This document shows, piece after piece, positions 5,062 through 27,327 of a DNA stretch of 64,000 bases. The DNA comes from Cymbomonas tetramitiformis (taxonomy: Eukaryota > Chlorophyta > Pyramimonadophyceae > Pyramimonadales > Pyramimonadaceae). Every line of letters starts with the position of its first letter. Within the stretch, counting starts at the first letter, position 1. The notes under the pieces were generated by a model. The model made no database searches, was not told the DNA's origin, and saw only the letters and a list, made by a program, of their open reading frames with translations. The stretch spans positions 35,729 to 99,728 of the forward strand of contig LGRX02035488.1 of the NCBI GenBank assembly GCA_001247695.2, given 5' to 3'. A program made the translations under genes and the position numbers.

Positions 5062-5063
5062 AA

Positions 5064-5379
5064 CAACACGCTATTCGGTGAAAATGACATTATGGTAGAG
5101 AAATGACATTAGTTGTTTTTTGCAATATTCAGGAAATATATTCGTGGAAATTTTAATTGTTTGAAATATTTTTGCTTGCAGGCCACCGCGATCGTAAAAT
5201 TTCAAGACATGTACCAAATTTTTTCCAAGACATGGTCAAGCATGCAATTTGTTTTCGGTGCGGAAAATGGACGTGCACATGACATGTGAAAGCAATATGC
5301 AATTGACAAACATTATTTTTCTGATAATTGCATTTACATTATGTACATTGATCTTTGCGTCTAAGCAAGCTATTTTTAT
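5064..5379. other. Left end of element A: inverted repeat and transposase 3' region
   Basis: The left terminal inverted repeat occupies 5064-5094 (CAACACGCTATTCG, then a GACATTATG block), followed by a second ATGACATTA block at about 5103. The remainder is AT-rich, with two TTGAAATATT-like stretches. It separates the terminus from the transposase stop codon and should be its 3' untranslated region. No other gene is seen. Confidence 0.7.
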
Positions 5380-7696
5380 TCACACCTCGACATCGCTGCC
5401 ATCGTCTTCCTCATTTTCATCGTTTTCGCTAATTTCTAGATCGCCTTCCGTTTCTAGCATTTGCCCGTTATCAATTCGTCTTTTTTTGGCACGTTGCGCA
5501 AGCAGTGCGATTACGAGCTGTCCATACTGCTCTTCTGGGATACAGCCTTTCACTTCGCCAACAGCGATGTTCCAGGACAGCAATATCTCCCCACTATTGA
5601 AGGCTTCTGTTGACGGCGCGTCGGATGGGTTCTCCCAGAAGGCTCCCGCTTTACCCGCTAAAACTTTTCCGAGTCTTCTCTCGTCCGTGTCCGTGTATTT
5701 CTTCACTTTCAGGTACTTGTACTTCAACTGCTTCGCGTAGGCAATCCGTGCATGCACTCGGACAAGCATCAGGGGATCCGACCATTCTTTGGCATTGAGC
5801 TTGACGCGGAATTGGCATACGTCGTTAGCCTTCACGCCCGTGATTTGTCCAAGGCAAACTGCATAGCTGTTGACGGTCATTTGCTCGTACGAAACCTCCC
5901 ATTGTGGGTCAGCCACGTACGCTTCAGCTTTCCTAGAGGCGCGATTCGCCGCCTTGCGTTTGCCCGTGTACATGGCAACCGGTGCACGCTCTACGCGTTC
6001 TTGAATTCGTGCTGGAATCTCTGCTGCTGCTGGTAGCTGAGTTTCAGCGAGTCTGAGAGGTGCTTCAAGAGCATGCACCAAAGGAGCATTGAGACGGTGG
6101 TGTAATTTGCTCGGCAACACGAAAGGAACATCGGGTTCTTCAAACACGTTCTCCTCGGTCAGCTTTCGTTGCTTCCTCAACAACTCCGTCCACCACGCCT
6201 CGTGGGTAGGTGAAAAAGTCGTACTCAAAATGCTCCGCAATCCTTGCACCAGATCTTCCAGCTTCGCAAGACCTTCGGTGGAGAACGCTTTCGGGTCGAC
6301 AAATTCAGGAAGCTCCTCAGGCATAGAATTCAACACCTTCAGGCCCTCCTCGGGCAACCACTTGATGTCGGTAGAATACATCTTGTATTGCACAACCACA
6401 TCGCCGTCCTCGTTCTTGTACGCCTTGAAGGTTTGTTGAGTTGAGATGCCACAAACGTTCTCGTAGCGCCCACTGAACCAGCTCTTCAGATCACGCACTT
6501 TCGCCACCGCGGTCGTGAAGATGCCATCCGTGAAACACTCCTTCGCGATTTCCATCATTTCGTCCAGGGTCAGAGCAAGTCTGCGTTTTAAGCGCACCGA
6601 AAATCGAGAGAACATTTGGTCGATGTTCTCGTGGGTGTGGCCGACGATTAAGAAATTCACCTTCACCTTTTTGAAAGCGCCCGACATGACCAGCCAAGAG
6701 ATGTAGGCCAACAGCATGATGCTCTTGTTCGTGCCCACGTTGTCCAGTTGAACGTACAAGACTTCCGGCATAGGGTACGGTTGTACGCCATCCCCTACAC
6801 GACGGTGCTCGTGAATTCGAATCACGTCACGATGCAGCACATTCAGCAAAAAGTTGGCGTCGTCCCCGTAATTCGCGTAGTTGAAGTCCATAAATCGCCC
6901 AACGTTCTCGATGATGCTACCCATATTATGCACGTCTAAGAAGTCCTTCCGGTCCAGATATGATGGCAGGCGCGTAAAATGGGGCAGGCGCGTCGTCCAT
7001 TGGGTCATGCCGTCGATAATAACTGAGGCATATTTCCACCAAGTCTTATTTTCCTTGATGCTCTTGGTCATGTTGGATTTCCGACCATGTTTATAGAACT
7101 TCTCGCGTTCAGCACGCGCTTGATCAAGGTGTTTTTCTCGCATCGCGTCGTATGGACCTGCAAAACAATTTAACACAAACTGTTACTAACTGACAAAACA
7201 ATTCGGGGAAAATACCAACTATTTTTTCTTAGAAAATATTAGACGTTAGCTCACCGTGTTGAGATTTGGGTGTGCCCTCCTTCAACAGTTTGATTGAAGC
7301 ACATACGCTGCACTGAGAGAACCGTTTGCACTTCGGAACTTTGAGCCAAGATTTAAACTTCTCCTTCCAGATGCCGTAGAAGTAAGGGAGGGAAACTTCC
7401 TTGGTTGCGCGGTCGTGAATAGATAAAGTCTCTAAATACTCGTCCCAAATCTCTTCTCGCGTGACTCCCGATGGCAGATGTGTCTCCGGTTTATCTGGCT
7501 GAGGTTCTCCTCTTTCTTCTGCGTATTTATTCAAGAAGGCGATAACATGTGACTTTTTGCTAGAACAGCGACGATTTGCCTCGCACCCTGTCAATCCGTG
7601 GACAAAGTTCGATCTCCCAGAGAGGACGCGTTCACGGACATCGCAAAAGTAGCCTTGACTTACTTGAAACACCTTCTGGTAGAACGCGGAGCATAC

Positions 7697-8223
7697 CTGT
7701 GACAGCCATAGGAAAAAAGTGCTCATTAGCTTAATGAGCACTTTTGCTCAAACTGTGACAAAGATAGAAATTCAGGCGACATGTTTAGGTATTCAAGGTA
7801 AGTAGGAAAAAGTGCTCATTAGCTTAATGAGCACTTTTTGCCTAAACTGTGACAAAGATAGAAATTCCGGCAACCTGTGTAGGTATTCAAGGTAAGTAGG
7901 GAAAAATGCTCATTAACTTAATGAGCACTTTTTGCCTAAACTGTGACAAAGATAGAAATTCCGGCAACCTGTGTAGGTATTCAAGGTAAGTAGGAAAAAG
8001 TGCTCATTAGCTTAATGAGCACTTTTTGCCTAAACTGTGACAAAGATAGAAATTCCGGCAACCTGTGTAGGTATTCAAGGTAAGTAGGAAAAAGTGCTCA
8101 TTAACTTAATGAGCACTTTTTGCCTAAACTATGACAAAGATAGAAATTCCGGCAACCTGTGTAGGTATTCAAGGTAAGTAGGAAATAGTGCTCATTAACT
8201 TAATGAGCAGATTTTCAGCGTAC
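7697..8223 (-). repeat. Intron of the element A transposase with a ~94-bp palindrome array
   Basis: The intron between the CDKP and VCSAF exons consists almost entirely of six tandem units of about 93-95 bp. Each unit holds the hairpin palindrome GCTCATTANCTTAATGAGC, whose centre base alternates between G and A. A block with TTCCGGCAACCTGTG, a short TATTCAAGGTAAGTAGG block and a CTGTGACAAAG block follow. The 9-bp arms of the palindrome are perfect in nearly every copy. The same palindrome recurs in the introns of the divergent gene at 20151-26808. Confidence 0.85.
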
Positions 8224-8518
8224 CGGTTTGTCACAGATAAAGTATTTAAATATGAACGTCGAGTCGATCGTGCGGGTACCATTTTTTGAAAGGTCTGATA
8301 CCATCCATTCTTTACGGTCTTTTGAGAAAAATTCCAAAACATTTCTCGTTGCGCTGTCAGAGCTGAGATATGAAAATTCATAGAGCAATGAGTTTTGCAG
8401 TTGCATCTAAAAACAGCTATTTCTTGAATAGAGGCTTCAGAGAGGTTTCGAGCTTTCAAAGAAATTTGTTTGTTTTGCTTCTGTATCCTGACTGTGGACG
8501 TGCACTTTAACAAATATT

Positions 8519-9990
8519 TGTCTTAAATAGTGTTAAATAGTGTTAAAAAGTGTTAAATAGGCTCCGATTTAACATTTCATGACCATATGTTAAAAATGGG
8601 GGTTGAAGTGTTAAAAATATTTAACCACACTTGTATAAAGTGTCATGGGCGGTTCAGTATTGGATGAGGACCATATATAAGTATGACACAATGTTAAATA
8701 GTGTTAAATGGGGTGCGATTTAACATTTCAGGTCCATATGTTAAAGTTGGGGGTTGAAGTGTTAAAATTCAGGTCATAATGTTAAATGTCATAATGTTAA
8801 ATTTTAACACTTTAGTGCGATATGTTAAAGTTGGAGGTGATAATGTTAAAAGGGAGGTGATAATGTTAAAATGATTTAACATTATGACATGTCAAATTAT
8901 GAACCGCATGTTTCCAAGGCATTTAACACTTTGTACGACATTGGTCTCAAGATGATTGGTTTTGATGCATTTAACACTATGACGTGTCACAATATGACAC
9001 TCTCGTTTTCTAGGCATTTAACACTTTCTACTGCACATGTTACAAGCCGATTGGTTCTGATGCATTTAACACTATGACATGTCAGAATATGACACTCTCG
9101 TTTTCTAGGCATTTAACACTTTCTACTGCACATGTTACAAGCCGATTGGTTTTGATGCATTTAACACTATGACATGTCACAATATGACACTCTCGTTTCC
9201 TAGGCATTTAACACTTTCTATTGCACATGTCTCAAGGTGATTGGTTACGATGCATTTAACACTATGACGTGGCACTATGTGACACTCTCGTTTCTAGGCA
9301 TTTAACACTTACCGCACATGTTACAAGCCGATGGTTCTTGGCTTATTTAACACTATGACATGTCGTAATATGACACTTCCGTTTTCTAGGCATTTAACAC
9401 TTTCTTTACCGCACATGTTACAAGCCGATTGGTTTTGATGCATTTAACACTATGACGTGTCAGAATATGACACTCTCGTTTTCTAGGCATTTAACACTTT
9501 CTACTGCACATGTTACAAGCCGATTGGTTCTGATGCATTTAACACTATGACATGTCAGAATATGACACTCTCGTTTTCTAGGCATTTAACACTTTCTACT
9601 GCACATGTTACAAGCCGATTGGTTATGATGCATTTAACACTATGACATGTCACAATATGACACTCTCGTTTCCTAGGCATTTAACACTTTATATTGCACA
9701 TGTCTCAAGGTGATTGGCTATGATGCATTTAACACTATGACGTGGCACTATGTGAATGCCTTCAACAGTGAGGCATTTAACACTTTGTACTGCACATGTC
9801 TGAAGCTGATTGGTTCAAATCCATTTAACACTATGACGTGTCACAATATGACACTCTCGTTTTCTAGGCATTTAACACTTTCTACTGCACATGTTACAAG
9901 CCGATTGGTTCTGATGCATTTAACACTATGACGTGGCACTGTGTGAAGCCTTCAGGTTCTAGGCATTTAACACTGTGAACTGCATGTCTT
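8519..9990. repeat. Subterminal TTTAACAC array, about 94-bp units
   Basis: From 8519 to about 8880 the sequence is a loose set of TGTTAAAT/ATTTAACA motifs on both strands. From about 8930 to 9970 it becomes a tandem array of about eleven units with a 94-95 bp period. Each unit reads GCATTTAACACTATGACRTG, then CACTCTCGTTTTCTAGG, then a second CATTTAACACTT and ACAAGCCGATTGG. Every unit therefore contains two TTTAACACT motifs. Short frames read through it are repeat translations, not genes. Confidence 0.85.
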
Positions 9991-10059
9991 TGAATAATGT
10001 CTTTGGTTCGTCTCCAACTACTTTTGCTGGCTTGTAATAATTCAGATTGCTAGCATCCC

Positions 10060-10180
10060 TCAGGCCACACGGCCGTAACAGGACACAGAACTATAACGCA
10101 TCCCTGCTGTCTGCATCCCTGAGGCCACAGGGCCGCAACAGGACACAGAGCAAGAACGCGCGCAGAGTAGGCAATCAAGG
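10060..10180. promoter_or_regulatory. Two GGCC-palindrome motifs near the left end of element B
   Basis: Two copies of the motif GAGGCCACANGGCCG, each followed by a CAACAGGACACAG-type tail, sit at about 10065 and 10120 with the spacer GCATCCCTGCTGTCTGC. The core GGCC-ACAN-GGCC is an inverted repeat, and the outer CCTG and CAGG can also pair. Eleven copies occur in element B, all in the same orientation, several just upstream of minus-strand start codons. Here they lie downstream of the transposase 3' end, and copies at 18509-18650 mirror them at the other end. Confidence 0.6.
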
Positions 10181-10204
10181 TGCGTGGAGCAGCTACACTA
10201 TCTC

Positions 10205-13200
10205 CTATGTGGGCTTGCTGCGCAAATGTCGCAGCCCCCGGAACAAGTAAATTGCGTGCATGTCGCCACCAGCCTCGGGTCTATGGAAGATCACCTTGTT
10301 TTGGATGCAGCTAATAGGTAGAATGAGTTCCCGCGCGGAGGCCTCGTCCAAAACGTCGATTCCCACGCATTGCACGTTGGGTGCGGATTTTGTGGAGTAG
10401 ATCCTCATTTTAGCAAGGCGGCAGATCACATTATTCTCTTCCTTGCCGAGTATCAAGTAAAAGGATAAAATGGTCGCATAGGTATGCTGCAATCCCCACG
10501 CAGGAGGGCACTGGATGCCAACATTGTAAGATACGCGCTGCTTGGCTAGAGTATATGCCACTGAAGTAAAATCATCCCCATCCATATGCATTCTGGCATA
10601 TTGTTTGAACACGGTAGTAAGTGGTTCCTCGCATACCTTCACCCCATGGAGTGCAAATATCAAATCTGTGACCATCTCTTGAAGGACACGGTTGTCGCTG
10701 ACAAGTTGAATATCGGTGCATGAGCTCCGGGTTGCTGCACCCAGGAAGTAAACGCCATCATCCCTGCATTTGTCCTCATCCCCGACAGGCCGTTTTCGAA
10801 TTACTTTCCCTGGAACAATGCTGAGCAGATCAGCCAACTCTCGCATTTCCTGGTGTGAGAATTGGTAGTCATCCAGTGACTGCCGCATGGTTAGGCGGTT
10901 TCCCATCACGATATCAGGGAAGTTCGTTGCATTTTGTACGCAGCCCTTCATCGCTTGAACCCCGCGTTCAACCCAAAACTCCATGATGGCACTCACACTT
11001 CCAAGAACCAGCTCTTGGCGAGGGAGGTGGACCACACACAGCCGCAAATTCAAGGTGAGCATGTTCAGCGGGCATTGTTCCTCGAGGATACATGCAAACC
11101 TCCACATGTCCGAGGTTGCCTGCGTCCTGGCACTGGAAAAGGCTGCATCGTCCGTATAAACTGTTGCGCCGCGCATGTAAAACAAGCACGCTCGCCTCAG
11201 CAGATTCCATGCCTCATTTAGGTGCTCATTCAGATCCAGGAGCTCCTCCCCAAGCACAATCATTCCATAATACAAGACAAAACTCAACATGTCCTCCATC
11301 GTATACATCCCTGCAAGGTGTGAGAGGGAAGGCCACTGGTTAGAACTCTCTCTCTCTCTCTCTCTATCAACGTCTAACTAAACACCATCTCTGCATTCAC
11401 GCTATTCCAAGATGGTTTCAGTGAATACAAACTCGGGGGGTTTTAGAAAAGGGTGACCGCAAGAGGGCATACCCAAATATTGAACAATGTCTTGGTATCC
11501 TCGTGCCATATCCGAAGGTGGTTGCAATCCAACACCCCTGGCTTGTATTCTGGATAAGGCCTCTGTCGAAAACACACACTCATACTTCTCACAATGATCC
11601 ACCTTTCCAAGCAGCATTTTGAAAAAGAGTTTGCTGATACCGTAACAGAAACTGTGCCCAAATGGTACACAGTAAGCCCAAATGGGATCAAAATAGGGGA
11701 GCTGCTCGAGTGGCCCTGATGAGTATCGCCCGCACGCCATCGGAGTATGCCCGCCGTTCACCACAGCATCCACCAAATGAAGATGGTCCTCGTGGGATAG
11801 CATGGCGCGCTCATCATTTGCATACACCAGCTCGTCACCCATCCAAGTCTGTGATATAGGTTCCAAGTACCCTTTACTGTACATACCATGCCCATTAATT
11901 CCAGAGGTACCTTCCCACAGACTCCGCGCATCATTTCGACGAGCCGAAACTGGTGCGAAACAGCCTAGATCGTTCCTGGCCACAGTATCACAGTGGACAA
12001 CTGACAAATACACGAACATCTACTCATGATGTTTTTTGAAGTGTCCATCATACACGCGGAACCCATTCATCAACTCCAATAGTTCGCGTACAAATGGGTA
12101 GAGTAAGACGTGTACGTTTTTCCATTTCTGTCGTGGTCCCGGTGACAGGAAGACGGTGGCCACAAACCGCCCAGACATACGAAACTGCACACATTCCATG
12201 AATCGTGGCTCCACCACCCCATCCAACCCCACCCACTATGCTGACCACGTTTCCACGCATTGAAAAGCATGCAATTGGTGAGACTATTCACTTTAAAAAT
12301 TCACTTGCTACATGCGTTTCTCCAACACACCTTTAATGGCAGGTCGCTTGGTCGTATGAATCCAAACCTGGAAGACCACTGCCTGAGCTTGAGCGCATCC
12401 CACCCCATCCCAAATAAACAACTGGCATGTGTTGTTCTCCAATTGCCATAGTCGGTGTCCCAGATGTGCGTCGGTACAACTCTACTCCAGGCGTAGCCCT
12501 CTGCCTGACCCTCTGCCTGGTTGATGTGCTCCGCCAATGGACTTCCCACCTTGACCATGTGAACACGCACATACTTCCAATCTCCGGGCATGGCAAGCAC
12601 TGAGAGGCTGTTGCCATCGGTCAAGTCAAGGGACAACACAATACGATCAGCAAACGGATAGTTGGTTTGCATTGTTTTGGGATGCAGCACACAGGTGCCA
12701 GAATTGCCAAATCCAATGGTCAGCACGAACCAGGAGGAAGTGGCCTTTCCTTGTAACAGGAAGGCCATGCGCTTGGCCCATGTGGTGATCCCGCGCAGCT
12801 CGAACTCGCCCTCTTTCGTTTGATGTTTTGCAAACACCACCCGAATGTCATGTTGACCATTAAAGGTACAAAACCATCCCGCAGGCCTCCAAGTGAAGGC
12901 GCGGACGATGAGCTTGAACTCTCCACCAGTGGTCTTGACATACTTCACTGCCAACAAGTGAAGTGCGATCGCCACTGTGAAGAAATTTATCAAGACAACG
13001 AGTCCTTCTGTCATCTGATAACATGGAAACCAACCACAGGCCACATGGCCGTAAGAGGTATGGCCCCATGACATCGGGTGCACTTGAACAACGTATGGAA
13101 TATGTGTGGACGGGAAATTCCGAATGGCATGACGTTGCTTGACATGCAGACTTTGGATTCCGCGGGAAAGAAACCCAACTCTAAGCGACATATAGTCAAG

Positions 13201-13245
13201 TACTAATAAGAGCGCCTCAGTCGCTGTTTGTCCTACAAATCTCAC
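10205..13245 (-). pseudogene. Tnp2-like transposase of element B (several exons, broken)
   Basis: Three minus-strand blocks read in order. 13245-12301 (probable start at an ATG near 13017, just downstream of a GGCC palindrome) has no motif I recognise. 12232-11402 carries the core: LSPGPRQKWKNVHVLLYPF and VRELLELMNGF, then VVHCDTVARNDLGCF, then LPYFDPIWAYCVPFGHSF. This order matches the Tnp2 core (proline-rich entry, D-x-x-A block, fD...mH block). 11308-10205 has LNLRLCVVHLPRQELVLGS and a trailing WVERGVQAMKG, like the DUF4218 region that follows Tnp2 in plant CACTA elements. A TAG at 12020 separates HHE from MFVYLSVVH in the same frame, so this copy is interrupted once within the core. Intron borders between blocks are not resolved. 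Confidence 0.65.
11309..11401 (-). other. Probable intron with a CT microsatellite
   Basis: A 93-bp stretch between the second and third transposase blocks contains a short (CT)n run at about 11347-11365. It probably holds an intron, but I cannot fix the splice sites with confidence. Confidence 0.35.
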
Positions 13246-13800
13246 AATGTTTCCAAAATAATTAATACTAAGATGCCTCTGTAGGTGGCTCTAATAAAGG
13301 CATTGATGCAAAGGTGTTCATATGAAGGTATTGGGATGGGCGTGGGATAAAACACACCTGACGGGTCCAATGCAAACAGTACACACAGACACGACAGGAA
13401 ATCTAACATACCCCAAAGTAACCCTGACAACAGCCTTGAGGTGGCTCTACAGCTTGCTCTAAAGCAATGAGCATCGAAGGCAATCAAAGGCAACAGGCAC
13501 GATATGGGCGTGGTAGAAAGCACACCTTGAAGGAAGTGTAGCCTTGTGGAAAAGTAGTAGATGATGTACTCGATCCAAGGGCGGATACTAGAAGCTATTA
13601 ATAACCTTTGACAACCACGCGAAAATGAAACATCCAGCGGAAAATGAAACATCCAACAACCGTTCCCCAGCAACCATTAGATTTTCATCAAACTTTCAAC
13701 ACAAGAGTTCAGCGCCGACTTCTAGTATTCAAGATGACACACCAGGCCACTATATATTCAGATTAACTTATATAATACTATATAGTCAGATAGCAACTTT
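13246..13800. other. Spacer inside element B, no gene supported
   Basis: The stretch holds only a short minus frame (13242-13673) with no recognisable domain. The frame is Leu/Phe/Ser-rich and contains a pair of TTGTTCAAGG-like blocks and repeated AAAATGAAACATCCA (13621-13660). It lies between the transposase and the RING-type gene and may hold a promoter or intron. Confidence 0.35.
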
Positions 13801-14286
13801 TTAGTTAACCAATGTGTAACGTCCCCATACATGATCGATCAACTGTGTACAGTAGGGGCATGTCCTATACCCTCTCGAGGCGCTCCGCATTACGGCTCCA
13901 CAATGCTGCCTACATATGGCGAGGCCACAAATCCGGATCCTACGCTGTTGCCTGGGCGTCACTCCGTCAGCCTCAGGTTGGAGGCCATTTTGGAATCCTT
14001 CCTGGCGGCACAACTCGCACCCCAGGTAAACATCGTCATTACGGGGATGAGTGGTTTGGGGTATTGCTTCCCCAGGCAAATTGGCCCGACATACGTAGGA
14101 TTCATAGGCATCCAACGATACTATGTCGGGGTTTGCTTCGGGGCCGGATACCACCTCCCAAGTCTCATCCCCTGCCTCCCAGAGAACTAGGGCCTCTTGA
14201 ACCCGCTGTCTATTAACGGTACGGAACCTAACTCGCAAGATTGAATTCACGATGTAACGGTCATTTGTTAACTCCATCACCTGCAT
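13801..14286 (-). CDS. RING-like zinc-finger protein of element B
   Basis: 161 codons, ATG at 14286 (MQVMELTNDRYIVN), TAA at the end. Residues about 90-150 carry CELC, then CGLAICRQHCG about 25 residues later, then CPYC, a C-x2-C ... C-x4-C-x2-H-C ... C-x2-C pattern like a variant RING finger. RING domains usually bind zinc and recruit ubiquitin-conjugating enzymes; CACTA-like and other large elements sometimes carry such accessory genes. A GGCC palindrome (about 14302) lies just upstream of the start, as for the other RING gene at 16825. The spacing is not canonical, so the E3 role is inference. Confidence 0.55.
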   Translation of the reverse strand: MQVMELTNDRYIVNSILRVRFRTVNRQRVQEALVLWEAGDETWEVVSGPEANPDIVSLDAYESYVCRANLPGEAIPQTTHPRNDDVYLGCELCRQEGFQNGLQPEADGVTPRQQRRIRICGLAICRQHCGAVMRSASRGYRTCPYCTQLIDHVWGRYTLVN

Positions 14287-14580
14287 TCAAGATGACACCA
14301 CACCAGGCCACACGGCCGTAAGAGGTGTAGGGTCATGGACTACTCAGGGTTCACTGGTATTCAAGACGAAGACAACACAGACCATAATGAGGGACCAGGA
14401 TCTGAAGATCGATGCAGCGCGGGTCAAAACATGCACTAATTGTATACACACACTTTACAATAAACCGCTGCTCAAAGAGCAGAGCAGAGCTTCTGTGGTG
14501 ACCTACACTACACTAATATGTGAACGTTTATCTCTGCGCGTATTCTGTCGGATCGGATATGCGCGTGGGGATCACAACAT
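14287..14580. other. Upstream region of the RING-like gene
   Basis: It contains one GGCCACACGGCCGTAAGAGG motif (about 14302-14325) within the likely promoter or 5' leader of the minus-strand gene that starts at 14286. The rest is unique sequence with no supported gene. Confidence 0.4.
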
Positions 14581-14581
14581 C

Positions 14582-16625
14582 CCACTGAACCGCGCGCGGG
14601 GGCAGATGAGGAAATCACCATGCTAAACATGGCACTTGCCTGTTCAATGAAGCCTTCATGTCTCTCTGTCGAATGTAGTGCTCCCCCCGCCTTGAGGTAT
14701 GTAGCCTTTTGTTGACATACACACATTTGCAAGGAAGTAGAGCCCACTACATCCCACTCCTGTGAGACGCCGGTAGTAGAGTTTTGGGAAGCTAGCGGGG
14801 GTCGTGTAGAAAATAATGAGGGACCATGATCCCAGCAGGCAGCAGCCTAGCTACGCAAGTACAATGGCAGCAGCACAACATCCCACCTAACCGCGGGGGC
14901 AGATGAGGAAATCACCATGCTAAACATGGCACTAGCCTGTTCAATGAAGCCTTCATGTCTCTCTGTCGAATGTAGTGCTCCCCCCGCCTTGAGGTATGTA
15001 GCCTTTTGGTGACATACACACATTTGCAAGGAAGTAGAGCCCACTACATCCCACTCCTGTGAGACGCCGGTAGTAGAGTTTTGGGAAGCTAGCGGGGGTC
15101 GTGTAGAAAATAATGAGGGACCATGATCCCAGCAGGCAGCAGCCTAGCTACGCAAGTACAATGGCAGCAGCACAACATCCCACTGAACAGCGGGGGCAGA
15201 TGAGGAAATCACCATGCTAAACATGGCACTCGCCTATTCAATGAAGCCTTCATGTCTCTCAGTCGGATGTAGTGCTCCCCCCGCCTTGAGGTATGTAGCC
15301 TTTTGGTGACATACACACATTTGCAAGGAAGTAGAGCCCACTACATCCCACTCCTATGAGACGCCGGTAGTAGAGTTTTGGGAAGCTAGCGGGGGTCGTG
15401 TAGAAAATAATGAGGGACCATGATCCCAGCAGCCTAGCTACGCAAGTACAATGGCAGCAGCACAACATCCCACTGAACAGCGGGGGCAGATGAGGAAATC
15501 ACCATGCTAAACATGGCACTCGCCTGTTCAATGAAGCCTTCATGTCTCTCTGTCGAATGTAGTGCTCCCCCCGCCTTGAGGTATGTAGCCTTTTGATGAC
15601 ATACACACATTTGCAAGGAAGTAGAGCCCACTACATCCCACTCCTGTGAGACGCCGGTAGTAGAGTTTTGGGAAGCTAGCGGGGGTCGTGTAGAAAATAA
15701 TGAGGGACCATGATCCCAACAGGCAGCAGCCTAGCTACGCAAGTACAATGGCAGCAGCACAACATCCCACTGAACAGCGGGGGCAGATGAGGAAATCACC
15801 ATGCTAAACATGGCACTCGCCTATTCAATGAAGCCTTCATGTCTCTCAGTCGGATGTAGTGCTCCCCCCGCCTTGAGGTATGTAGCCTTTTGGTGACATA
15901 CACACATTTGCAAGGAAGTAGAGCCCACTACATCCCACTCCTGTGAGACGCCGGTAGTAGAGTTTTGGGAAGCTAGCGGGGGTCGTGTAGAAAATAATGA
16001 GGGACCATGATCCCAGCAGGCAGCAGCCTAGCTACGCAAGTACAATGGCAGCAGCACATCCCACTGAACAGCGGGGGCAGATGAGGAAATCACCATGCTA
16101 AACATGGCACTCGCCTATTCAATGAAGCCTTCATGTCTCTCAGTCGGATGTAGTGCTCCCCCCGCCTTGAGGTATGTAGCCTTTTGGTGACATACACACA
16201 TTTGCAAGGAAGTAGAGCCCACTACATCCCACTCCTGTGAGACGCCGGTAGTAGAGTTTTGGGAAGCTAGCGGGGGTGGTGTAGAAAATAATGAGGGACC
16301 ATGATCCCAGCAGGCAGCGAGCAGCCTAGCTACGCAAGTACAATGGCAGCAGCACAACATCCCACTGAACAGCGGGGGCAGATGAGGAAATCACCATGCT
16401 AAACATGGCACTCGCCTATTCAATGAAGCCTTCATGTCTCTCAGTCGGATGTAGTGCTCCCCCCGCCTTGAGGTATGTAGCCTTTTGGTGACATACACAC
16501 ATTTGCAAGGAAGTAGAGCCCACTACATCCCACTCCTGTGAGACGCCGGTAGTAGAGTTTTGGGAAGCTAGCGGGGGTCGTGTAGAAAATAATGAGGGAC
16601 CATGATCCCAGCAGGCAGCAGCCAG
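14582..16625. repeat. Tandem array of seven ~297-bp units
   Basis: Seven units with a period near 297 bp follow one another with few differences. Landmarks of each unit are GGGGGCAGATGAGGAAATC, the hairpin CATGCTAAACATG, TGTAGTGCTCCCCCCGCC, GACATACACACATTTGCAAG, GACGCCGGTAGTAGAG and CCATGATCCCAGCAGGCAGC. Unit differences are mostly single substitutions (for example CTGTTC versus CTATTC) and variation in the number of GCAG repeats near the end. The minus frames of 65-110 codons that recur in it are repeat translations. Such arrays can mark recent expansion; no function is evident. Confidence 0.9.
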
Positions 16626-16824
16626 CAGCATAGCCGTGCAGGTAGAACAGTTCACAGGTACAACAGGTACAGGCTGCGCACAACCAGGTACAATATAGGC
16701 TGCACCAGCCTCACATTTCAAAGATTCAATCCGTTTTGTCTGAGACAACTAAACATAAATAGATAGTTAAATTACAGTACCAACTAGTTCAACTTAAAGT
16801 ACAGGTTAACTTCTACTAGTTAAC

Positions 16825-17154
16825 TTAGCTCCAAACAATGTTACAAAGCGGGCAGGAAACACTTATCTTGCAACTTCTAAGAAAAGCAGTAAAGCAAGGC
16901 AAGTGGTAAAAGACATTTTTGCAGCCACAACCTAGTCCATTTGTGGCTGCCTGGGTTTCACTAACCTCCTCTAAACAGATTGGACAAATCTTAGGCTCGA
17001 CAGTTGGCAACAACTTGTCTAGGAGCCGTTCTACAGAGAAGTCTTCCTGACTCCCTTTGGAGCTTGAACCGCCTGTCTGAGTTTCAGAGGGTCTTTCGTC
17101 TTCAAAGCTTAGAAAAGGAAAGAGTATTTTCATAATTTCGTCGTCACTTTCCAT
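16825..17154 (-). CDS. RING finger protein of element B
   Basis: 109 codons from an ATG at 17154 (MESDDEIMKIL) to a TAG at 16825. The C-terminal half carries ICPICLEEVSETQAATNG, then CGCKNVFYHLPC, then SCPLC. This is a C-x2-C ... C-x-C ... H-x2-C ... C-x2-C arrangement typical of RING-type E3 ligases. The N-terminus is acidic and Ser-rich. The start codon lies six bases past a GGCC palindrome motif (GGCCTTGTGGCCTCAGGG on this strand), which points to a shared promoter or leader element in this transposon. RING fingers bind two zinc ions and contact E2 enzymes. A role in protecting the transposase or altering host ubiquitination would be inference. Confidence 0.7.
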   Translation of the reverse strand: MESDDEIMKILFPFLSFEDERPSETQTGGSSSKGSQEDFSVERLLDKLLPTVEPKICPICLEEVSETQAATNGLGCGCKNVFYHLPCFTAFLRSCKISVSCPLCNIVWS

Positions 17155-17159
17155 GAATC

Positions 17160-17365
17160 CCTGAGGCCACAAGGCCGTAGCAGGATTCAGTGAACGATGG
17201 AAATAACAGGGAAAGAAAACTTAAAAGTTCAGCCGGCAAAAACAAAATCGATGAAAACAGTGCACACACGACAAGTGTGCAATCACACACCAATGTAACC
17301 CTCACAGCATCCCTGCAGGCACAACACAGCACAGCACAGCATCCCTGAGGCCACAAGGCCGTAGC
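17160..17365 (-). promoter_or_regulatory. Paired GGCC-palindrome motifs upstream of the RING gene
   Basis: Motif copies at about 17160 and 17343 (GAGGCCACAAGGCCGTAGCAG) flank a 180-bp stretch. The first ends just before the RING start codon on the minus strand. A small open frame (ATGCTGTGCTGTGCTG, from about 17341) starts directly after the second and may be a short leader or a lost gene. Confidence 0.5.
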
Positions 17366-18460
17366 AGGATGCTGTCAAAGGTTGGAGTAAAAGTCCACCA
17401 ACTGCAGACATAAAAAAAAACTAGCTCCACAAGCACAATGCAAGTCCCAGTTGCAAATGTTTTCATATTATCCTATGCTGGTGTATGTTCCCAAGAAAAC
17501 TTGGGCACTTCTGTGGGCACTTCTGTTGGCCCAACGCAGCATACCAGTGTAAAACTATAGCATGAGGCAAAAAACCCCGATGAAAACAGTACACCCTGGA
17601 ACGACTTTTAACAAACCCCTTCAAACCGCTGACAACATCCCTGAGGCCACATGGCCGTAACTCGATACAGTCAGAGGTTTGAAGGGGTTTGACAATTAAT
17701 TAAAAAGGAAAAACTGATGGATGAAAACAGTACACCCTGTAACGACTTCTAACAAACCCCTTCAAACCTCTGACAACATCCCTGAGGCCACATGGCCGTA
17801 ACTGGATACAGTCAGAGGTTTGAAGGGGTTTGACAATTAATTAAAAAGGGGAAAACTGATGGATGAAAACAGTACACTCAAAGAAGACTTCTAACAAACC
17901 CTCACACACATACACATTACACACCCCATGAAGAATACAAGAAGAAAGCGTACCTCCTCTGCTGGCTGCTGAAGCTGCTTATAACTTCGTTAAAAACTTG
18001 GAGTAACTGTCCCACCAAAAAAAAAGAAACCAAACAACAGCCCGCTCCATCCATAGGTAACAATTAGCTAAACCGCCCAGCGATGCGTTTTCTAGCAGGC
18101 TTCGCTCCATTCATAAGTACCAAATAAAGAATGCAGGTCAAGGAAAAGAGGAGTACGCGTACCTCCTACAAAAACTTTGCTGAAGACTTGATAAAGTGAA
18201 GTAGCTGCACAGCAATAAAGAAGGGTAGAAAAAACCTCCCAAAAGCTCGCTAAGATGCCAAAAACAATTAAAGCAATTAAAGCAAAGAGGGCACCCGCCC
18301 AGGCAAGGAAACTCGTTTGATTCTCTCTCCTATCTCTCCTGTCAAAGGTTGGAGTAAAAGTCCACCAACTGCAGATATAAAAAAACCTAGCTCCACAAGC
18401 ACAATGCAAGTCCCAGTTGCAAATGTTAACATATTATCCTATGCTGGTGTAAAGCGGTCA
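17366..18460 (-). other. Region with two related small membrane-protein starts
   Basis: Two minus-strand copies of the same 5' coding sequence occur. One starts at an ATG near 18433 (MLTFATGTCIVLVELGFF) and one near 17468 (MKTFATGTCIVLVELVFF). Both read into a hydrophobic stretch of transmembrane type, then TPTFD or LQPLTG. The 18433 copy also has a second frame (18092-18409) with AGALFALIALIVFGILASF, a clear membrane helix; a frameshift or intron would join them. The 17468 copy is truncated by a GGCC motif. Function unknown. Confidence 0.45.
17600..17850. repeat. Duplicated ~140-bp unit with a long inverted repeat around a GGCC motif
   Basis: Two direct copies (about 17575-17715 and 17716-17855) each contain AACCCCTTCAAACC, a GGCC palindrome motif and then GGTTTGAAGGGGTT. 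The outer arms (about 20 bp) pair with each other, so the GGCC motif sits in the loop of a larger hairpin. The first copy's left arm has one substitution (CCGCTG versus CCTCTG). A DNA cruciform or RNA hairpin is possible. Confidence 0.75.
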
Positions 18461-18508
18461 AGCTGCTTGATTTACTAAGTACTAAGAAACTCGGAGAGAA
18501 CTGCGCAG

Positions 18509-18655
18509 TCCTTAGGCCACAGGGCCGCAACAGGACAGAAAACTAGAACGCATCCCTTATCTGCATCCCTGAGGCCACAGGGCCGCAACAGGACACAGAA
18601 CTAGAACGCATCCCTGCTGTCTGCATCCCTGAGGCCACAGGGCCGCAACAGGACA
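18509..18655. repeat. Three GGCC motifs near the right end of element B
   Basis: Three copies of GGCCACAGGGCCGCAACAGG occur at about 18516, 18572 and 18633, in 60-bp units with AACGCATCCCT spacers. They are nearly identical to the pair at 10117 near the left end, so the two ends share this block in direct orientation. Confidence 0.7.
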
Positions 18656-18753
18656 CATAGCAAGAACGCGCGCGGAGTTTCTTAACCTTAACTTAAAGCG
18701 AGGACACCAAATAAATCAATCTACTAATTACATGCAACAAGGAGGATTTCTAC

Positions 18754-18961
18754 CTTCAGAATTTTCAAACTCGCGAATGGCTCGTAACTTGCTCCTAAGC
18801 TGTGCCTTATTCATTTGCCGCGGCCCCGCCCATACATCCCATGCATCGCTGTCCACGCAACGATGTGCTATATATGTAATAGCCGCGCGCGTCACGCCAC
18901 GTACCCGCGTCTGTCTATCTCCGCTAAAAAGCTTCAACCAATGAGCGAGCGAGTTACTCAT
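18754..18961 (-). CDS. First exon of an element B gene (MSNSLAHWLKLF...)
   Basis: An ATG at 18961 opens a frame of about 69 codons (MSNSLAHWLKLFSG, later DVWAGPRQMNKAQLRSKLRA) that ends at a clean donor, TCTGAAG|gtagaaat, at 18754. It sits directly inside the right subterminal TTTAAC region, where a transposon promoter would be expected. The next exon is not identified. The Arg/Lys-rich, helix-like composition suits a DNA-binding N-terminus, so it may be the 5' end of the Tnp2-like gene or of an accessory gene. Confidence 0.45.
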
Positions 18962-19201
18962 GTTTAACACGCCCCTAGAAAATATATATCAAGAATCGGT
19001 GGTACAGACATCAACCTGATCGATTTAACATTCTCACACCAATAATGTTAAATCTTGTCGACTGACTTCACATCGTTGTTAAATCGGAGAGGTGTCCCTT
19101 TTTCTTTATCTTTTAAATTAGGGTAATGCATTTAAACGGAACTGCCCATATTTAACACTATTTAACACTATTTAACACTATTTAACACTATTTAAGACAA
19201 A
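18962..19201. repeat. Right subterminal region and inverted repeat of element B
   Basis: It contains scattered GATTTAACATT and ATGTTAAATC motifs followed by four perfect head-to-tail copies of ATTTAACACT (about 19150-19190) and the terminus CTATTTAAGACAAA. It mirrors the left terminus at 8517. Confidence 0.8.
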
Positions 19202-19754
19202 TACTCATTCCAGTGGTGTAAGCGGCTCTTTGCTTAGTAGTGTTTTTGAATTTCCCGTTTAGCACACTTTCGATGTTTTCTTTCCCTACACTATGTGTGA
19301 GAAAGCTCGCCTCAAGGCTTTGAGTTATCCCATTAAAGTCTACACTCGCGATCTTTCTTGTAGTAGACTCTTGCGTGGCTAATGAGCAATTGCTACTGAA
19401 TGAGCGCGTTGGCGACTTTGGAGGTAAAGCGGTAATCGGAGTTTCAGCTCTTAGCGAGTTGATTGGCGTACTCGCGAACGGAAAGCAGGGAAAGCATATT
19501 AACTCATCGACACAGTCTGACTTGTAGACCGATGAGCGAATCGCGTTCTCTGGCGATGAGCGAATAGCGGTCTTTGGCGATGAGCGAATAGCGGTCTTTG
19601 TCGATGAGCGAATAGCGTTCTGTGTCGATGAGCGGAGAACGTCAGTATTCAAGTCTACGACATCGTCTACTTCAGTTGCGTATGTTAACTTGTTTTGCGA
19701 AAGATCTATGATCTCGTCTATTTGGCCTGCAGAATTTGGCCAGAACGACTTCAT

Positions 19755-20150
19755 CGAAAAAATGGTTCATAAAACTTATGAGGCGATTTTCCGTTGAATG
19801 GAAACGACATGCCTTTTATCCTCGTTTCGTCTGGAAACTTGGAAATGACCATCGGTCATAAAAAATTCTTGGATCGATCGAAAAGATATCATCCAATGAA
19901 ATCATTTTTTAGTCGTAGTCGTGGATCGAAGTATTAATCATGCATGTCATCAATAGATATCGAATCAATGCGTCCAATCAAAAACCGGGATCTACAGATT
20001 CAGGATTAGGACACCAAAATTCGACAATGACCTGAACGTTTCTTGTGTCTCCAGTTCATTTCTGACTTCACTTCTCAAAAGCTTTAACCTACTTTGCAAC
20101 GTAAACTTCCAGTCCATCAGCTTTCTAGTTAGCTCATTACTCGGAAAATA
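19755..20150. promoter_or_regulatory. Divergent intergenic region of element A
   Basis: 396 bp separate the start of the minus-strand transposase (19754) from the start of the plus-strand ParB/methylase-like gene (20151), so both promoters should lie here. It is AT-rich, with GATCGATCG-like and ATCGAT blocks at 19872-19970. No recognised promoter box is certain. The arrangement implies co-regulation of the two genes. Confidence 0.6.
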
Positions 20151-20678
20151 ATGGCTTCGCCAGAACAGTTCAAAGCGGTCGTGCAGTCAGGGAACACAAC
20201 AGAGTTCTTACAGTTCCGATGGGCTGTAATGAGAAACAGCGCGAACCAATTAGAGCTTTAAATATTTCCCATCGACGCCCTTGAGAGCCCACCGGTGTTG
20301 CACAAAATTCCGGTTTATACCCCGTCCGATACAGAGTCTCCCCTGCGCGTGTGCTATCCAGCTAAGCACGCGCAGGGGAAGGCAATGTATGTCATCATTG
20401 TCAGAGACTCGCAAATTACTTCCACCTGCCTTACCGCTGCAAACCTGATCAGCAGTTCGGTCGCGCCAGCATACACTACAAGGCGCGACCGTTTCGATGA
20501 GCTGGTTAGAGTAGCGAGCGGAAAGGAAGAGGCATTCTCCACCTTCATAAACGATATGTGGAGAAACAGCCACAACGACGACTTCTGGAAAGCCCCTGAG
20601 AAGTCTGGTCAGTCGTACGCTACCTTGGACGAGACGATAGACACAGAGATGGGTGGAGTCAGTGTTCTGCCGACACAG

Positions 20679-21716
20679 GTACGAAACCCGCTCATTAGCT
20701 TAATGAGCAGTTCTGTTCACTCTCCTTTGTCGTGTCATAGTATGACAAAACTGCCCTTCTTACCTGATCTTAAGTGTGTGTGATAGTAAAAGGTTTCTAC
20801 TTTTTTCTATTGTCGTGTCATAGTATGACACAAAGCCACTTCCTACCTGAGCGTAGCTGTGTATGACCAAGAAAGTCCGAACCTGCTCATTATCTTAATG
20901 AGCAGTTCTGTACACTTTTCTCTTTGTCGTGTCATAGTATGACAAAAAGCCACTTCCTGCCTGAGCTTAGCTGTGTATGACCAAGAAAGTCCAAACCTGC
21001 TCATTATCTTAATGAGCAGTTCTGTACACTTTTCTCTTTGTCGTGTCATAGGATGACAACAAGCCACTTCCTGCCTGAGCTTAGCTGTGTATGACCAAGA
21101 AAGTCCGAACCTGCTCATTATCTTAATGAGCAGTTCTGTACACTTTTCTCTTTGTCGTGTCATAGTATGACAAACAGCCACTTCCTGCCTGAGCTTAGCT
21201 GGGTATGACCAAGGAAGTCCAAACGTGCTCATTATCTTAATGAGCAGTTCTGTACACTTTTCTCTTTGTCGTGTCATAGTATGACAAAAAGCCACTTCCT
21301 GCCTGAGCCTAGCTGTGTATGACCAAGGAAGTCCAAACGTGCTCATTATCTTAATGAGCGCTCCGTACACTTTCTCTTTGTCGTGTCATAGTATGACAAA
21401 AAGCCACTTCCGCCCGAGCTTAGCTGTGTATGACCAAGTAAGTCCAAACGTGCTCATTATCTTAATGAGCAGTTCTGTACACTTTTATCTTTGTCGTGTC
21501 ATAGTATGACAAAAAGCCACTTCCTGCCTGAGCCTAGCTGTGTATGGCCAAGGAAGTCCAAACGTGCTCATTATCTTAATGAGCAGTTCTGTACACTTTT
21601 ATCTTTGTCGTGTCATAGGATGACAAAAAAAGGCAGGTCCTACCTGAATTCAGCTGGGTATGACCGAGAAAAGTCGCCAATGTGTCACCATTTTTGTACT
21701 TGTTTTATTTTGGCAG
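20679..21716 (+). repeat. Intron with eight ~113-bp palindrome units
   Basis: The intron opens with ACAG|gtacgaaacc and closes with ttttggcag|GATGAC. It consists of about eight tandem units. Each unit has GCTCATTATCTTAATGAGC (A or G at the centre in the first copy), AGTTCTGTACACTTTT, the second palindrome GTCATAGTATGAC, GCCACTTCCTGCCTGAG and CTGTGTATGACCAAG. It ends where exon 2a begins. Frames running through it on either strand are repeat translations. Confidence 0.85.
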
Positions 21717-22187: not shown

Positions 22188-22256
22188 AACATCAATTTCT
22201 AATTAATTTTGTACACTGGAAATAAAAATTGTTTTTCTTGTTTTTATTGTTGACAG

Positions 22257-22733: not shown

Positions 22734-22922
22734 AACACCATTTTTTTGTAAAGTATAATGAAAATATATTTTAAGAAATATTGCATAGCATGACATATAA
22801 GGGCATTTATGCACGTACGCAGCTGTGTATGACTGACAAAGTGAGAAACTGCTCATTAGCTTAATGAGCAATATTGCACCGTTTTAGTTTGTCACTAAAT
22901 TTATTGGTGGGATATTTTGCAG
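22734..22922 (+). other. Intron before exon 3, with one hairpin palindrome
   Basis: This holds one GCTCATTAGCTTAATGAGC copy at about 22851 and the acceptor ttttgcag|ACTTAC at 22922. The TATTT-rich first part looks like an exon 2b 3' untranslated region (AATGAAAATATA). Confidence 0.6.
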
Positions 22923-23969
22923 ACTTACAAGACAGCTGTTGAGCTCGAAGAGATTGCAAAGTCTCATGGTCCCGGTGGTAGCTTACTGGATTACAAGCAG
23001 GGAGAAACTGCTAAACAGGCAAAAGCTCAGAATGAGGAGCTCGCTTCGCAGGATTGGAAGTCTCTTCTTACCTTGCCAAAGGTTAAACGTCCAGTCCAGG
23101 ATGCAACTACCATTCGCTACAACATCGAGTTCCACCACCGGTACCCGAGGGTAGTGGATACCAAGGATGTGATGGGATGTACATTCAGTATCCCCATTCA
23201 GTATATTCAGCAGGCTGAGGGCTACGAGCGAATCAGGGATGAGGATCGGGCTCAAGTCAACAATCTGAAAGACAGCATGGCTTGGAACCCATACTCTTTC
23301 CAGAACAGCTCACTTGTATATGTTGTAGACAGAGCCACTGGTGAACAATTGAAGTCCGCCTCGGAGTTCAATGTGAATCAAGTTTTAGAAGGCAAATATA
23401 TTTTCGTGTGCTTTGGGCACCAACACAGTCTTACAGCTCGGCGCGAGCTTCATGCCGAACAGCCTACTAAGGAATCCTGGTGGCAGATCGAATGCAAGTT
23501 GTATATCAATTTGCAATCAGACATGGTCAGGTTCTTGGCCGACAAACAGAATATGGTCGACCAGAACACCAAGGGCAAGACTCATCAACAAATAATGAAG
23601 TCAATGCGCGTTGGTATGCAGGTAATTTTACTAAGTGATGATTGCATTTGTGCATGTATACAATCAAATTAGACTTTTGTGACTGTAGCCTGTCTAAGTT
23701 GATGACCAAAATGGAATTTTTGCGGTCGGTATGCAGGCGCAAAGGGGCCCCCTCCACAAGCTGTATTGGCATTGTGGTATCACTGAGTGGGACCCCGCCA
23801 CCGATGACTGGAGGGAGCATGGATTCTTGGATTGGTGAAAGAGTTAGCTAAACAATATCCATCACTGTTTGGGCTACCAGAAGATCCAGAATCACGTTTG
23901 AATGTCTACACAAATCTTAGTAATCAGGATTGGAACAATGTAAATGCCTGGCGATTCTTTGGACAACAG

Positions 23970-24723
23970 GTAAAAAGAATTTATATGATGAATAAATATT
24001 ATACATTGTTGCCTATACTTGGATGTGAATTACTGCATCAGTTCAGAAACTGCTCATTAGCTTAATGAGCAGTTTTGTCCAGTTTTACCAAGTCATACCC
24101 TATTATGACATCTTAGCCCCTATTATTCGTCCTTTACTGTGAATATCTGTATCAGTTCATAAACTGCTCATTAGCTTAATGAGCAGTTCTGCACCGTTTT
24201 ACCAAGTCATACAATATTATGACATCTTAGCCCCTATTATTCGTCCTGTACTGTGAATATCTGCATCAGTTCATAAACTGCTCATTAGCTTAATGAGCAG
24301 TTTTGTCCCGTTTTACCAAGTCATACAATATTATGACATCTTAGCCCCTATTATTCGTCCTTTACTGTGAATATCTGTATCAGTTCAGAAACTGCTCATT
24401 AGCTTAATGAGCAGTTTTGTCCCGTTTTACCAAGCCATACAATATTATGACATCTTAGCCTCTATTATTCGTCCTGTACTGTGAATATCTGTATCAGTTC
24501 AGAAACTGCTCATTAGCTTAATGAGCAGTTTTGTCCAGTTTTACCAAGTCATACAATATTATGACATCTTAGCCTCTATTATTCGTCCTGTACTGTGAAT
24601 ATCTGTATCAGTTCAGAAACTGCCCATTAGCTTAATGAGCAGTTCTGCACCCCCTTTGCTTATTCATGGCATAATATGACGTCTTATTCACTCTTACCTG
24701 TACTTTGTTGTGTATGACTTCAG
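23970..24723 (+). repeat. Intron with six ~116-bp palindrome units
   Basis: Six units carry GCTCATTAGCTTAATGAGC followed by AGTTTTGTCCCGTTTTACC, AAGTCATACAATATTATGAC, CTTAGCCCCTATTATTCG and TGTGAATATCTG. The second palindrome appears here in a variant (GTCATA..TATGAC). The intron ends with ttcag|GTGCC. These are the most uniform units of the four arrays. Confidence 0.85.
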
Positions 24724-26808
24724 GTGCCAAATGGCAAATGGTGGCCTGTTTGGGATTATTTGACCGGGGCTCAGCAGAATCAAATCAAAGCGGAAGTTCT
24801 ATACATGAATCACATCTCTGTGGCGAACGAGTACGCCACGAATTGGACAATTGCTACCACGCGCCAGGATACTTGGGACCTTGTTTCAAAAATCATGCAG
24901 ATGTTCCGTGAAAATTTGCTGAAGGGACAAACAAAGACCCCCTCCAAGGCTGGAAAGGGCAAACGCAAGGCTGCCTATGATCTAGACAGCGATGTCGTCG
25001 ACTTGTCAACAGAAACAGCTGGAGCGGAGCAGGCGTTGCAAGACGTTGGTGTCGACCCCAAGCAGAAGAAGACCGGTAAGAAGGCCAAGTCTAAACTTCT
25101 TCCTCGAAGCGCTGCTAACACGTTGAGTGTTGGGCAGCCGGCACAGCCTTTGCAGCAGGCGATCGTGAAGGAGTTGGAGAAGAAGGAAGTGAGTATGAGC
25201 CTGTTTCATAATATGCTTGGGTTTAACTCGAACATCGAGATAGACTACCTCAACAGTATACTACGGACGATCACAAATATCGAAATTAGCATCCCTGAAG
25301 CCGGCGACATCATGAAGAAGTTCAAGGCCCAACGCAATGTCCAAGCCTGGATTGTGTCACAGTCCGGGGTGGCGGATTGGGATGCCTTCGAGACAAAATA
25401 TGGTGAGCTTTGGGCAAGCCAAGAGAGCATCGAGCGGTGCATCAAGGCGGTGAAAGCTGGAAAATCAGGACGAGGCGGGAGTGTGCAACAGATTCCCAAG
25501 TCCATCATTCAATACGTCGCCGACGCCAACACGTGGCTTGAGAGGTGTGTTGCCGGAGCAGGAGACCTAGAGAAGCTGCCACTGCAATACACTTCCGCCG
25601 AAATCCGGGTGAGTGACAGAGACTGCACGCCATTTTGCATTACGGTTTCAAAAAAACTCACTACAACGGAATTTTATATCGTTTAAGTATCGACAACGTG
25701 TTTTGCGGCACAGGCGAAACTACCCACACCCGTCGTGGAGGTGGGCGACGAACCGCCTGAGGTCGAGTATGATACCAAAAGTCTCAAGCCCGCATACATG
25801 ATCCTCGAGGACGAGTTGACGAAAATGGACACCATCCCCAAGTTGAATTATGTGGGGGTGATCGTTGACTGCGTTTACGAATTGGATTATGAGGAAGTTA
25901 CGAACAGGCTATCTGAAGCCGAATTGATCAAGATCATCGACGCGTTTGCGGCGCTCACTACCGCGCCAGACTGGTCGGTAGTAATATTTTGTGGGTTCGC
26001 ACAACAGTCCAACTTCCTGAAGATTCTGGAGAGCAAATGCAATGGTGCTGCCCAACGCATATGGTGGCACAAGAAGAATGCTTCAGTGGGAGCCAACAAA
26101 AACATCAGGTATAATGCCTTGGAGGCGGCGGTCATCGCGTTCCATATGGCTGAGGTAGAGCCCGGGGTACAATCCACTCGCAAATCCTGGATGGCAGATT
26201 TCGACCTGGATATCGAGCACAAATCGAGGGCCAACGTTCTCAAGGGGTTTTCGGTGGTCAAGCAACCCTTTAGACTCGACGGAAAAGTCGTATGTGCTCA
26301 CCAGAAGCCCCAACACCTATTGGAGGAGCTGATTACCTGCCACATGATGGGACCCGCACCCTTTACGGGATTAACGCACAACGCGATGCCCGATTCATCA
26401 ACCAACTGGATCTTGGATGCCGGGTGCGGGGTTGCGACCGCCACCGTGGCTGCGCTCCGGATCGGCCTCAATGCGGTCGCGTTCGACAATGATCCCGACA
26501 TGGTGAGTGCCGCAACTCAGCGGCTCGGGAATATCGATAAGGAGGTGAACGGGAATACGGAATGCATGTCCCTGGAGGAGACTAAAGCACTCGAAAAAGA
26601 AAAGGAACAAGAGGAACAGAGGCAAGAGAATGCGGAGATCCTGAAAGGGCTAGAGGATGTGGAGGATGTGGATGTGGAGTTTTTGCAAGGACTCGAGGCC
26701 GCAGCGCAAGCAGCGGAAGCCCGGCAAGCACCTGTTGAAAATCCTGCACCGGAGCGGGCGGCGGATGCTGACGCGGAGAATGATGAAGCAGCATCGATGG
26801 CCGAATAA

Positions 26809-27327
26809 TGCAAATGCTAGTCTTGAACAGTGAATACTTGCAGATATCGCGTACTAGATTGTGACCACGGTGTAGACCATCAGTTCTGAACATTAAATAA
26901 ACATCTGTACAATTGAATTAGACTCCGCGTCATTTTGTATCTTGTTTATACCTTGAATTCTTGCATATGCTTGCGAATTATGAAATGCTTGTCTTGAACC
27001 TTGAAAAAACGCAGTTACCGCGTACTAGATTGTGACCGCGGTATAACCACCCTTTCTGAACATTAAATAAACATCTTTACAATTGAATTAACCATTTCGT
27101 CATTTTATATCTTGTTTTTACCTTAAATTCTTGCATGTGCTTGTGAATTTACTATAAACACTCATACGTGTCTATCTATTATCCACATCGGCAGCCGCGT
27201 TTATACTTGCGTCTCAAGTTTCGTCATGATACACGGTATTTTCATACGAACTTAGAATTATTTAGCCATCTATAATTAAATTAAAAAATGACATTGCATA
27301 ATGTCGTTTTCATCGAATAGCGTGTTG
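26809..27327. other. Right end of element A: 3' region and inverted repeat
   Basis: The stretch after the stop codon contains two diverged direct copies of about 170 bp (26810-26985 and 26990-27150), each with ATTAAATAAACATCT, a likely polyadenylation signal. The element closes with the TIR (27297-27327). The whole stretch also occurs within the tandem duplication at 28587-30371. Confidence 0.7.

Follow-up and report, generated by a model that had tools for sequence, protein, structure and literature searches.

The stretch of Cymbomonas tetramitiformis DNA analysed here (the window; 64,000 nucleotides of contig LGRX02035488.1) carries a DNA transposon at 5064..27327, in which a gene for a DUF7869-type protein, probably the transposase, lies opposite a large intron-bearing partner gene whose last exon encodes a relative of DNA methylases. 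A second, CACTA-like transposon (8503..19215) is nested within it. The outer element is bounded by terminal inverted repeats (TIRs) of 31 nt, located at 5064..5094 on the plus strand and 27297..27327 on the minus strand, which match at 29/31 positions (94% complementary). A pattern fitted to both arms was found three times in the window and not at all in 100 shuffles; the third match, at 29097-29127, arises because 26786-28571 is duplicated at 28586-30373. The flanks (GAGAA/CAACACG...CGTGTTG/AATGACC, with slashes at the element ends) are compatible with a 2-bp target-site duplication, AA, the likely copies being 5062..5063 and 27328..27329. When the element is excised from the sequence and one AA is kept, an open frame of 316 residues spans the site (480 bases from each flank, 960 joined). 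Among the five duplication lengths assumed (0 to 4) this is the longest frame, the next being 240 residues for length 0 and 239 for length 3. A 2-bp duplication alone is weak evidence, and the case for the outer element is carried by the TIRs and the open frame. TIRs together with a duplicated target site, here 31 bp and an AA that opens the frame, are the arrangement of DDE cut-and-paste transposons. All three features had been noticed in the original prediction and stand. That prediction also took the whole of 5064-27327 for one large transposon; the outer element is real, but 8503-19215 is a separate insertion. Since 10,713 bp belong to the nested CACTA-like element, the outer element measures 11,551 bp (~11.55 kb) and not 22 kb.

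The tandem duplication noted above is 1.8 kb long and 99.6% identical, and takes in the right end of the outer element with its flank. It is either genuine or an assembly artefact. We considered it as a second copy of the element and set this aside, as only the right end is present. We note also that an open reading frame (ORF) adjoining the insertion site, 3779-4699, matches Sfi1 barely above the cut-off (22.2 vs 22 bits). This borderline match suggests an insertion into a host gene or close to one.

The DUF7869 gene and the nested element

The DUF7869 gene lies on the minus strand. Its last exon (5380..7157, acceptor placed by eye) matches DUF7869 (PF25273) with E=1.7e-43 and 148.9 bits, against a Pfam cut-off of 26, which places the protein in this family; the VQLDN and GHTHENID blocks from which the type was originally predicted are both present. 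The middle exon (7255..7696, splice sites by eye) is 52.6% identical to P0029 and 53.2% identical to P0019, both Cymbomonas DUF7869 proteins, over 156 residues. The 5′ exon is in two parts, 8235..8502 (the 3′ part, donor position uncertain) and 19219..19766 (the 5′ part, start codon not fixed), and its frame is restored across the nested insertion. Neither part found a match among 47 DUF7869 hits. These 47 hits were aligned with the window gene and another ORF of the window, 49 sequences in all. In ORF numbering, and counting the sequences that have a letter at the position, D57 is kept in 39/42, D147 in 44/47, E185 in 46/48 and D188 in 45/48. The order of D57, D147 and E185/D188 is that expected of a DDE nuclease. 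Together with the TIRs, these conserved acidic columns indicate that the DUF7869 protein is probably a DDE transposase. A text search of open-licence PMC papers returned no paper naming DUF7869. We also considered membership of IS3EU and rejected it, since that family makes a 6-bp duplication and has TAYGG ends (PMC12730594, cited, like the other papers below, from excerpts).

A second DUF7869-like ORF pair is located at 31255-33041 on the plus strand, in two overlapping frames and with a diverged GHSHNDLGGFFG block; PF25273 is matched in 32229-33038 with E=1.1e-8.

The nested element interrupts the outer element's transposase gene in its first coding exon. Its TIR arms (8503-8560 and 19158-19215) are 58 nt long and 90% complementary, its termini read CACT..AGTG, GTG flanks it on both sides and TTAAATAGTG repeats are seen near both ends. 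CACTA elements have CACT-type ends, a 3-bp duplication and subterminal repeats, and all three are found here. Joining the flanks gives an open frame of 293 residues if a 3-bp duplication is assumed and 294 if there is none, and one of about 200 residues for 2, 4 or 5 bases. The match to DUF4218 in an ORF of the nested element is weak (E=0.025) and lies under the cut-off. The element also contains a RING-finger ORF at 16828-17220 (PF13639, E=2.7e-6) and tandem arrays at 8874-9974 and 14573-16623 with 95-bp and 297-bp units.

The partner gene

The partner gene is on the plus strand and comprises five exons with GT-AG introns, ~1,140 residues in sum. Exon 1 (20151..20678) is joined straight to exon 2 (22923..23621) in the related protein P0010 (CYMTET_3606; 93% identity over 87% of the query), in agreement with our gene model. 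Exon 3 (23737..23969) is followed by a linker exon 4 (24724..25608), placed by its splice sites and by similar stretches in P0004 and P0008, and by exon 5 (25714..26808). A divergent partner had been proposed at 22923-26808; the gene is indeed present, but it starts at 20151 and not at 22923. The window copy of the gene is broken, because exon 1 has an in-frame TAA at 20259, where P0010 has Q, and exon 3 has an extra 8-bp stretch which shifts the frame and is without counterpart in P0004, P0008 and P0013. With the transposase gene split by the CACTA-like element and the partner gene carrying a stop and a frameshift, the window copy of the outer element is very likely dead. Two further ORFs, 21717-22187 and 22257-22733, lie between exons 1 and 2 and are 49% identical over 144 residues. 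Each follows a phase-0 CAG acceptor and is terminated by a stop, and neither has a Pfam match; they are perhaps alternative last exons that would yield short isoforms.

Judged by its sequence, the domain in exon 5 is a relative of DNA methylases of the beta class (N4/N6), and its S-adenosylmethionine (SAM)-binding half is firmly supported. Among the 8000 best candidates, nine relatives of the exon were found at E up to 0.01, seven from Cymbomonas tetramitiformis and two on ENA contigs. Seven phage and plasmid methylases served as the hhalign reference; an eighth, L003, runs over two reading frames and was left out. With the domain divided at the QKP block, its C-terminal (SAM-binding) half aligned with this reference with a probability of 98.3, a score that 0/100 column shuffles reached. 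PF01555 is matched by 5/9 members of the partner family at E up to 1, the best match being 7.1e-8; the window exon itself scores 18.3 bits, below the cut-off of 26.7. P0006 matches phrog_67 with E=1e-12, and P0013 has no phage match. In the partner family the QKP block precedes the SAM motif; this permuted order is that of the beta class and assigns the family to it. The permuted N4/N6 methylase SAM-binding block of the original prediction is thereby confirmed for the SAM half. A sequence search of the PDB gave no convincing match for two alignments or two single exons; P0006 matched MboIIA, at no better than E=0.037.

Exon 2 had been thought to contain a ParB-like block. By eye, ParB-like blocks do appear there in the proper order, for example GHQHSLTARREL and FLADKQN. 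No Pfam match to ParB (PF02195) was obtained in five proteins at E up to 10, a search in which the HMMER filters drop most weak matches, and no ParB match in NCBIfam was obtained in three proteins.

Quasi-palindrome arrays

A search of both strands that tolerated as many as 3 mismatches located a 21-bp quasi-palindrome, TGCTCATTANCTTAATGAGCA, 21 times in the window (18 exact copies, 3 with one mismatch) and never in 100 shuffles. The sites span 7720-24641 and within the window are confined to the outer element, the nested element having none. They form three tandem arrays with differing units plus one single site, all of which are intronic by our gene models. The array at 7709..8209, in a transposase intron, has a 94-bp unit and holds six exact quasi-palindromes. 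In partner intron 1 an array with a 114-bp unit (20689..21671) holds eight, six of them exact and two with one mismatch, and the single exact site (22850..22870) is located just before exon 2. Partner intron 3 contains an array of another 114-bp unit (24024..24644) with six sites, five exact and one with one mismatch. When the array consensuses are compared, with that of the transposase reverse-complemented, 18-21/21 bases are conserved in the 21-mer, against 13-24 of the 40 bases that flank it. The quasi-palindrome is a possible binding site for either protein of the element.

Linkage of the two genes

Two Cymbomonas proteins, the partner relative P0003 (CYMTET_55575) and the DUF7869 protein P0016 (CYMTET_55576), carry consecutive tags and are both listed with a contig of 165,451 bases, their adjacency being read from labels and not from DNA. 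Relative to the window, the transposase is 87% and the partner 63% identical. A second, diverged Cymbomonas copy with both genes as neighbours is strongly suggested by these data. Overall, tagged partner relatives occur on nine contigs, told apart by length (one of these relatives, P0014, covers only 8% of the query), and tagged DUF7869 hits on seven, with one contig common to both. The search for DUF7869 relatives took in proteins of 0.55-1.75 times the query length with E no higher than 1e-10. Each of the pairs P0004/P0012 and P0009/P0013 seems to represent one gene in fragments, having near tags and equal-sized contigs.

Interpretation

As a whole the locus is best explained, in our judgement with about an even chance of being correct, as a two-gene, probably cut-and-paste transposon in which a DUF7869 transposase is accompanied by an accessory protein that marks or binds the element's own DNA. 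The two genes diverge from a common central region of the element, whose host is a prasinophyte green alga. The 31-bp TIRs would be the substrate of the DUF7869 protein, in its probable role of DDE transposase. The large intron-bearing accessory protein, ending in the beta-class N4/N6 DNA-methylase-like domain, would most likely bind the element's own DNA and methylate it, or at least bind SAM there. Such binding or methylation might aid the transposase or shield the copy from silencing.

A number of observations weigh against this explanation, and some of them favour others. The catalytic (N-terminal) half of the methylase-like domain reached an hhalign probability of just 1.06, with 10/100 shuffles scoring as high. 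The catalytic [DNS]PP[YFW] motif of PF01555 is absent: by eye, DCVY or DVIY stands in place of DPPY in 9/9 members, with D and Y invariant and both prolines missing. Catalysis is doubtful, since this half has no profile support of its own and the motif is altered. The partner might consequently be a catalytically dead methylase fold which holds SAM or DNA as a cofactor of the transposase and methylates nothing. The lost prolines and the unrecognisable catalytic half are as this would predict; yet P0006 and P0007, only 41-43% identical to the window, have retained both the SAM-binding and the QKP block, as expected if the use of SAM matters, and the first proline is also missing (DLPY) in 5/7 reference methylases. 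We regard a dead fold as unlikely, though to be taken seriously. The distribution of the partner gene raises a different difficulty, as 8/9 contigs with a tagged partner relative have no DUF7869 protein among the matches listed, and the gene may therefore also exist independently of the element. Split gene models, loss or life outside the element could each account for the absent neighbours. The absent neighbours would also fit the proposal that the partner is a passenger, acquired from the host or from another mobile family and without a role in transposition. This appears quite unlikely to us: the pair is apparently adjacent in the second, diverged copy (87% and 63%), which suggests joint retention, missing neighbours may reflect split models such as P0004/P0012 and P0009/P0013, and other algal transposons are reported with similar genes (PMC12477816). 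Cymbomonas also harbours many integrated viruses (PMC10675990), and the region could in principle be part of one, for instance a Polinton-like virus (15-25 kb in Cymbomonas). This is highly improbable, given the GT-AG introns in both gene models and the lack of any viral hallmark family in those ORFs of the window that were compared with Pfam. A search of viral_contigs with the methylase exon and the TIR and palindrome patterns, the transposase being left out, likewise gave no relative and no exact match.

The tests of the ParB-like block were likewise unfavourable to the preferred explanation. Using hhalign against 10 phage ParB proteins the probability was 0.15, exceeded by at least 5/60 shuffles. 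A ParB profile built from 10 phage proteins and run without filters was equalled or bettered by shuffles in 7/400 cases for the window, 1/400 for P0010, 4/400 for P0011, 27/400 for P0012 and 13/400 for P0013. AlphaFold2 models of the methylase exon (nine sequences) and of the ParB-like exon (five sequences) were unusable, with mean predicted local distance difference test scores of 39.9 and 36.1. These values are too poor for a fold search of the kind that the original prediction had proposed against ParB and the methylase fold. The query alignment for the ParB-like block is thin (the window and four relatives), and the failure is therefore a lack of proof rather than disproof. Seen by eye and failing both library and shuffle tests, the block is rejected as an established feature of exon 2 and kept as a possible, unproven one. 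One can imagine the partner as a factor for self-recognition or self-marking, whose N-terminal block would bind TGCTCATTANCTTAATGAGCA in the manner of parS while the methylase domain would mark the surrounding element DNA, so that the transposase or chromatin could distinguish element from host. Both the writer and the address tag would then be supplied by the element itself; we consider this specific scheme decidedly unlikely.

Comparison with known systems

The original prediction regarded a ParB/methylase fusion as unfamiliar in eukaryotic DNA transposons. This does not hold, as the 21.5-kb transposon Sola1-1_Ec32 of Ectocarpus is reported to carry a ParB-like and N4/N6 methylase gene opposite its transposase (PMC12477816). 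The same source cites similar ParB/methylase proteins from green and red algal transposons (Iyer 2011; Petroll 2025) and describes nested insertions in most giant transposon families of Ectocarpus (PMC12477816, Genome Biology 2025). Like the present element, Sola1-1_Ec32 is a giant DNA transposon with the partner (~1,100 residues there) opposite the transposase; it differs in having a Sola-1 transposase and a brown algal host, where we find DUF7869, and the two are likened by description and not by sequence (PMC12477816). On the same descriptive basis, orientation, size and the methylase half agree with the algal ParB/methylase accessory genes, with the ParB half putative here (PMC12477816).

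Fungal DNA transposons bearing TET/JBP genes also place a DNA-modification enzyme as an accessory gene beside the transposase, but the enzyme is a dioxygenase (an eraser) and not a methylase, and the transposases and duplications are others, such as the IS3EU type discussed above (PMC12730594). DNA methylases are likewise carried by certain retrotransposons (DNMT, or Dam-like in DIRS), which differ in being retroelements with other methylase families (PMC5890265). Mariner elements of algal viruses, having an endonuclease and a methyltransferase, are again DNA transposons with a methylase gene; they have a Mariner transposase and reside in viral genomes, and a ParB-like block is unmentioned in the excerpt (PMC3627910). 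Relative to the beta-class N4/N6 methylases themselves (PF01555, phrog_67), the partner shares the permuted order of QKP block and SAM-binding motif, and differs by its DCVY/DVIY in place of DPPY and by its setting inside an intron-bearing eukaryotic protein of ~1,140 residues.

A DUF7869 transposase combined with a ParB/methylase-type partner did not turn up among the open-licence PMC papers that our text searches listed. The present analysis adds the DUF7869 transposase as companion and the 21-copy quasi-palindrome, ParB-like/N4/N6-methylase genes in algal transposons having already been described in 2025 (PMC12477816). The element adds a DUF7869-linked example to the eukaryotic elements with DNA-modification genes, which include the TET/JBP erasers, the methylase retroelements and the algal ParB/methylase transposons. 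The palindrome arrays provide a concrete candidate target, through which the proposal, already in the literature, that transposon proteins bind and modify their own element becomes directly testable, in an alga that already has long-read data.

Elsewhere in the window, a run of N at 41911-42399 represents an assembly gap or a masked stretch.

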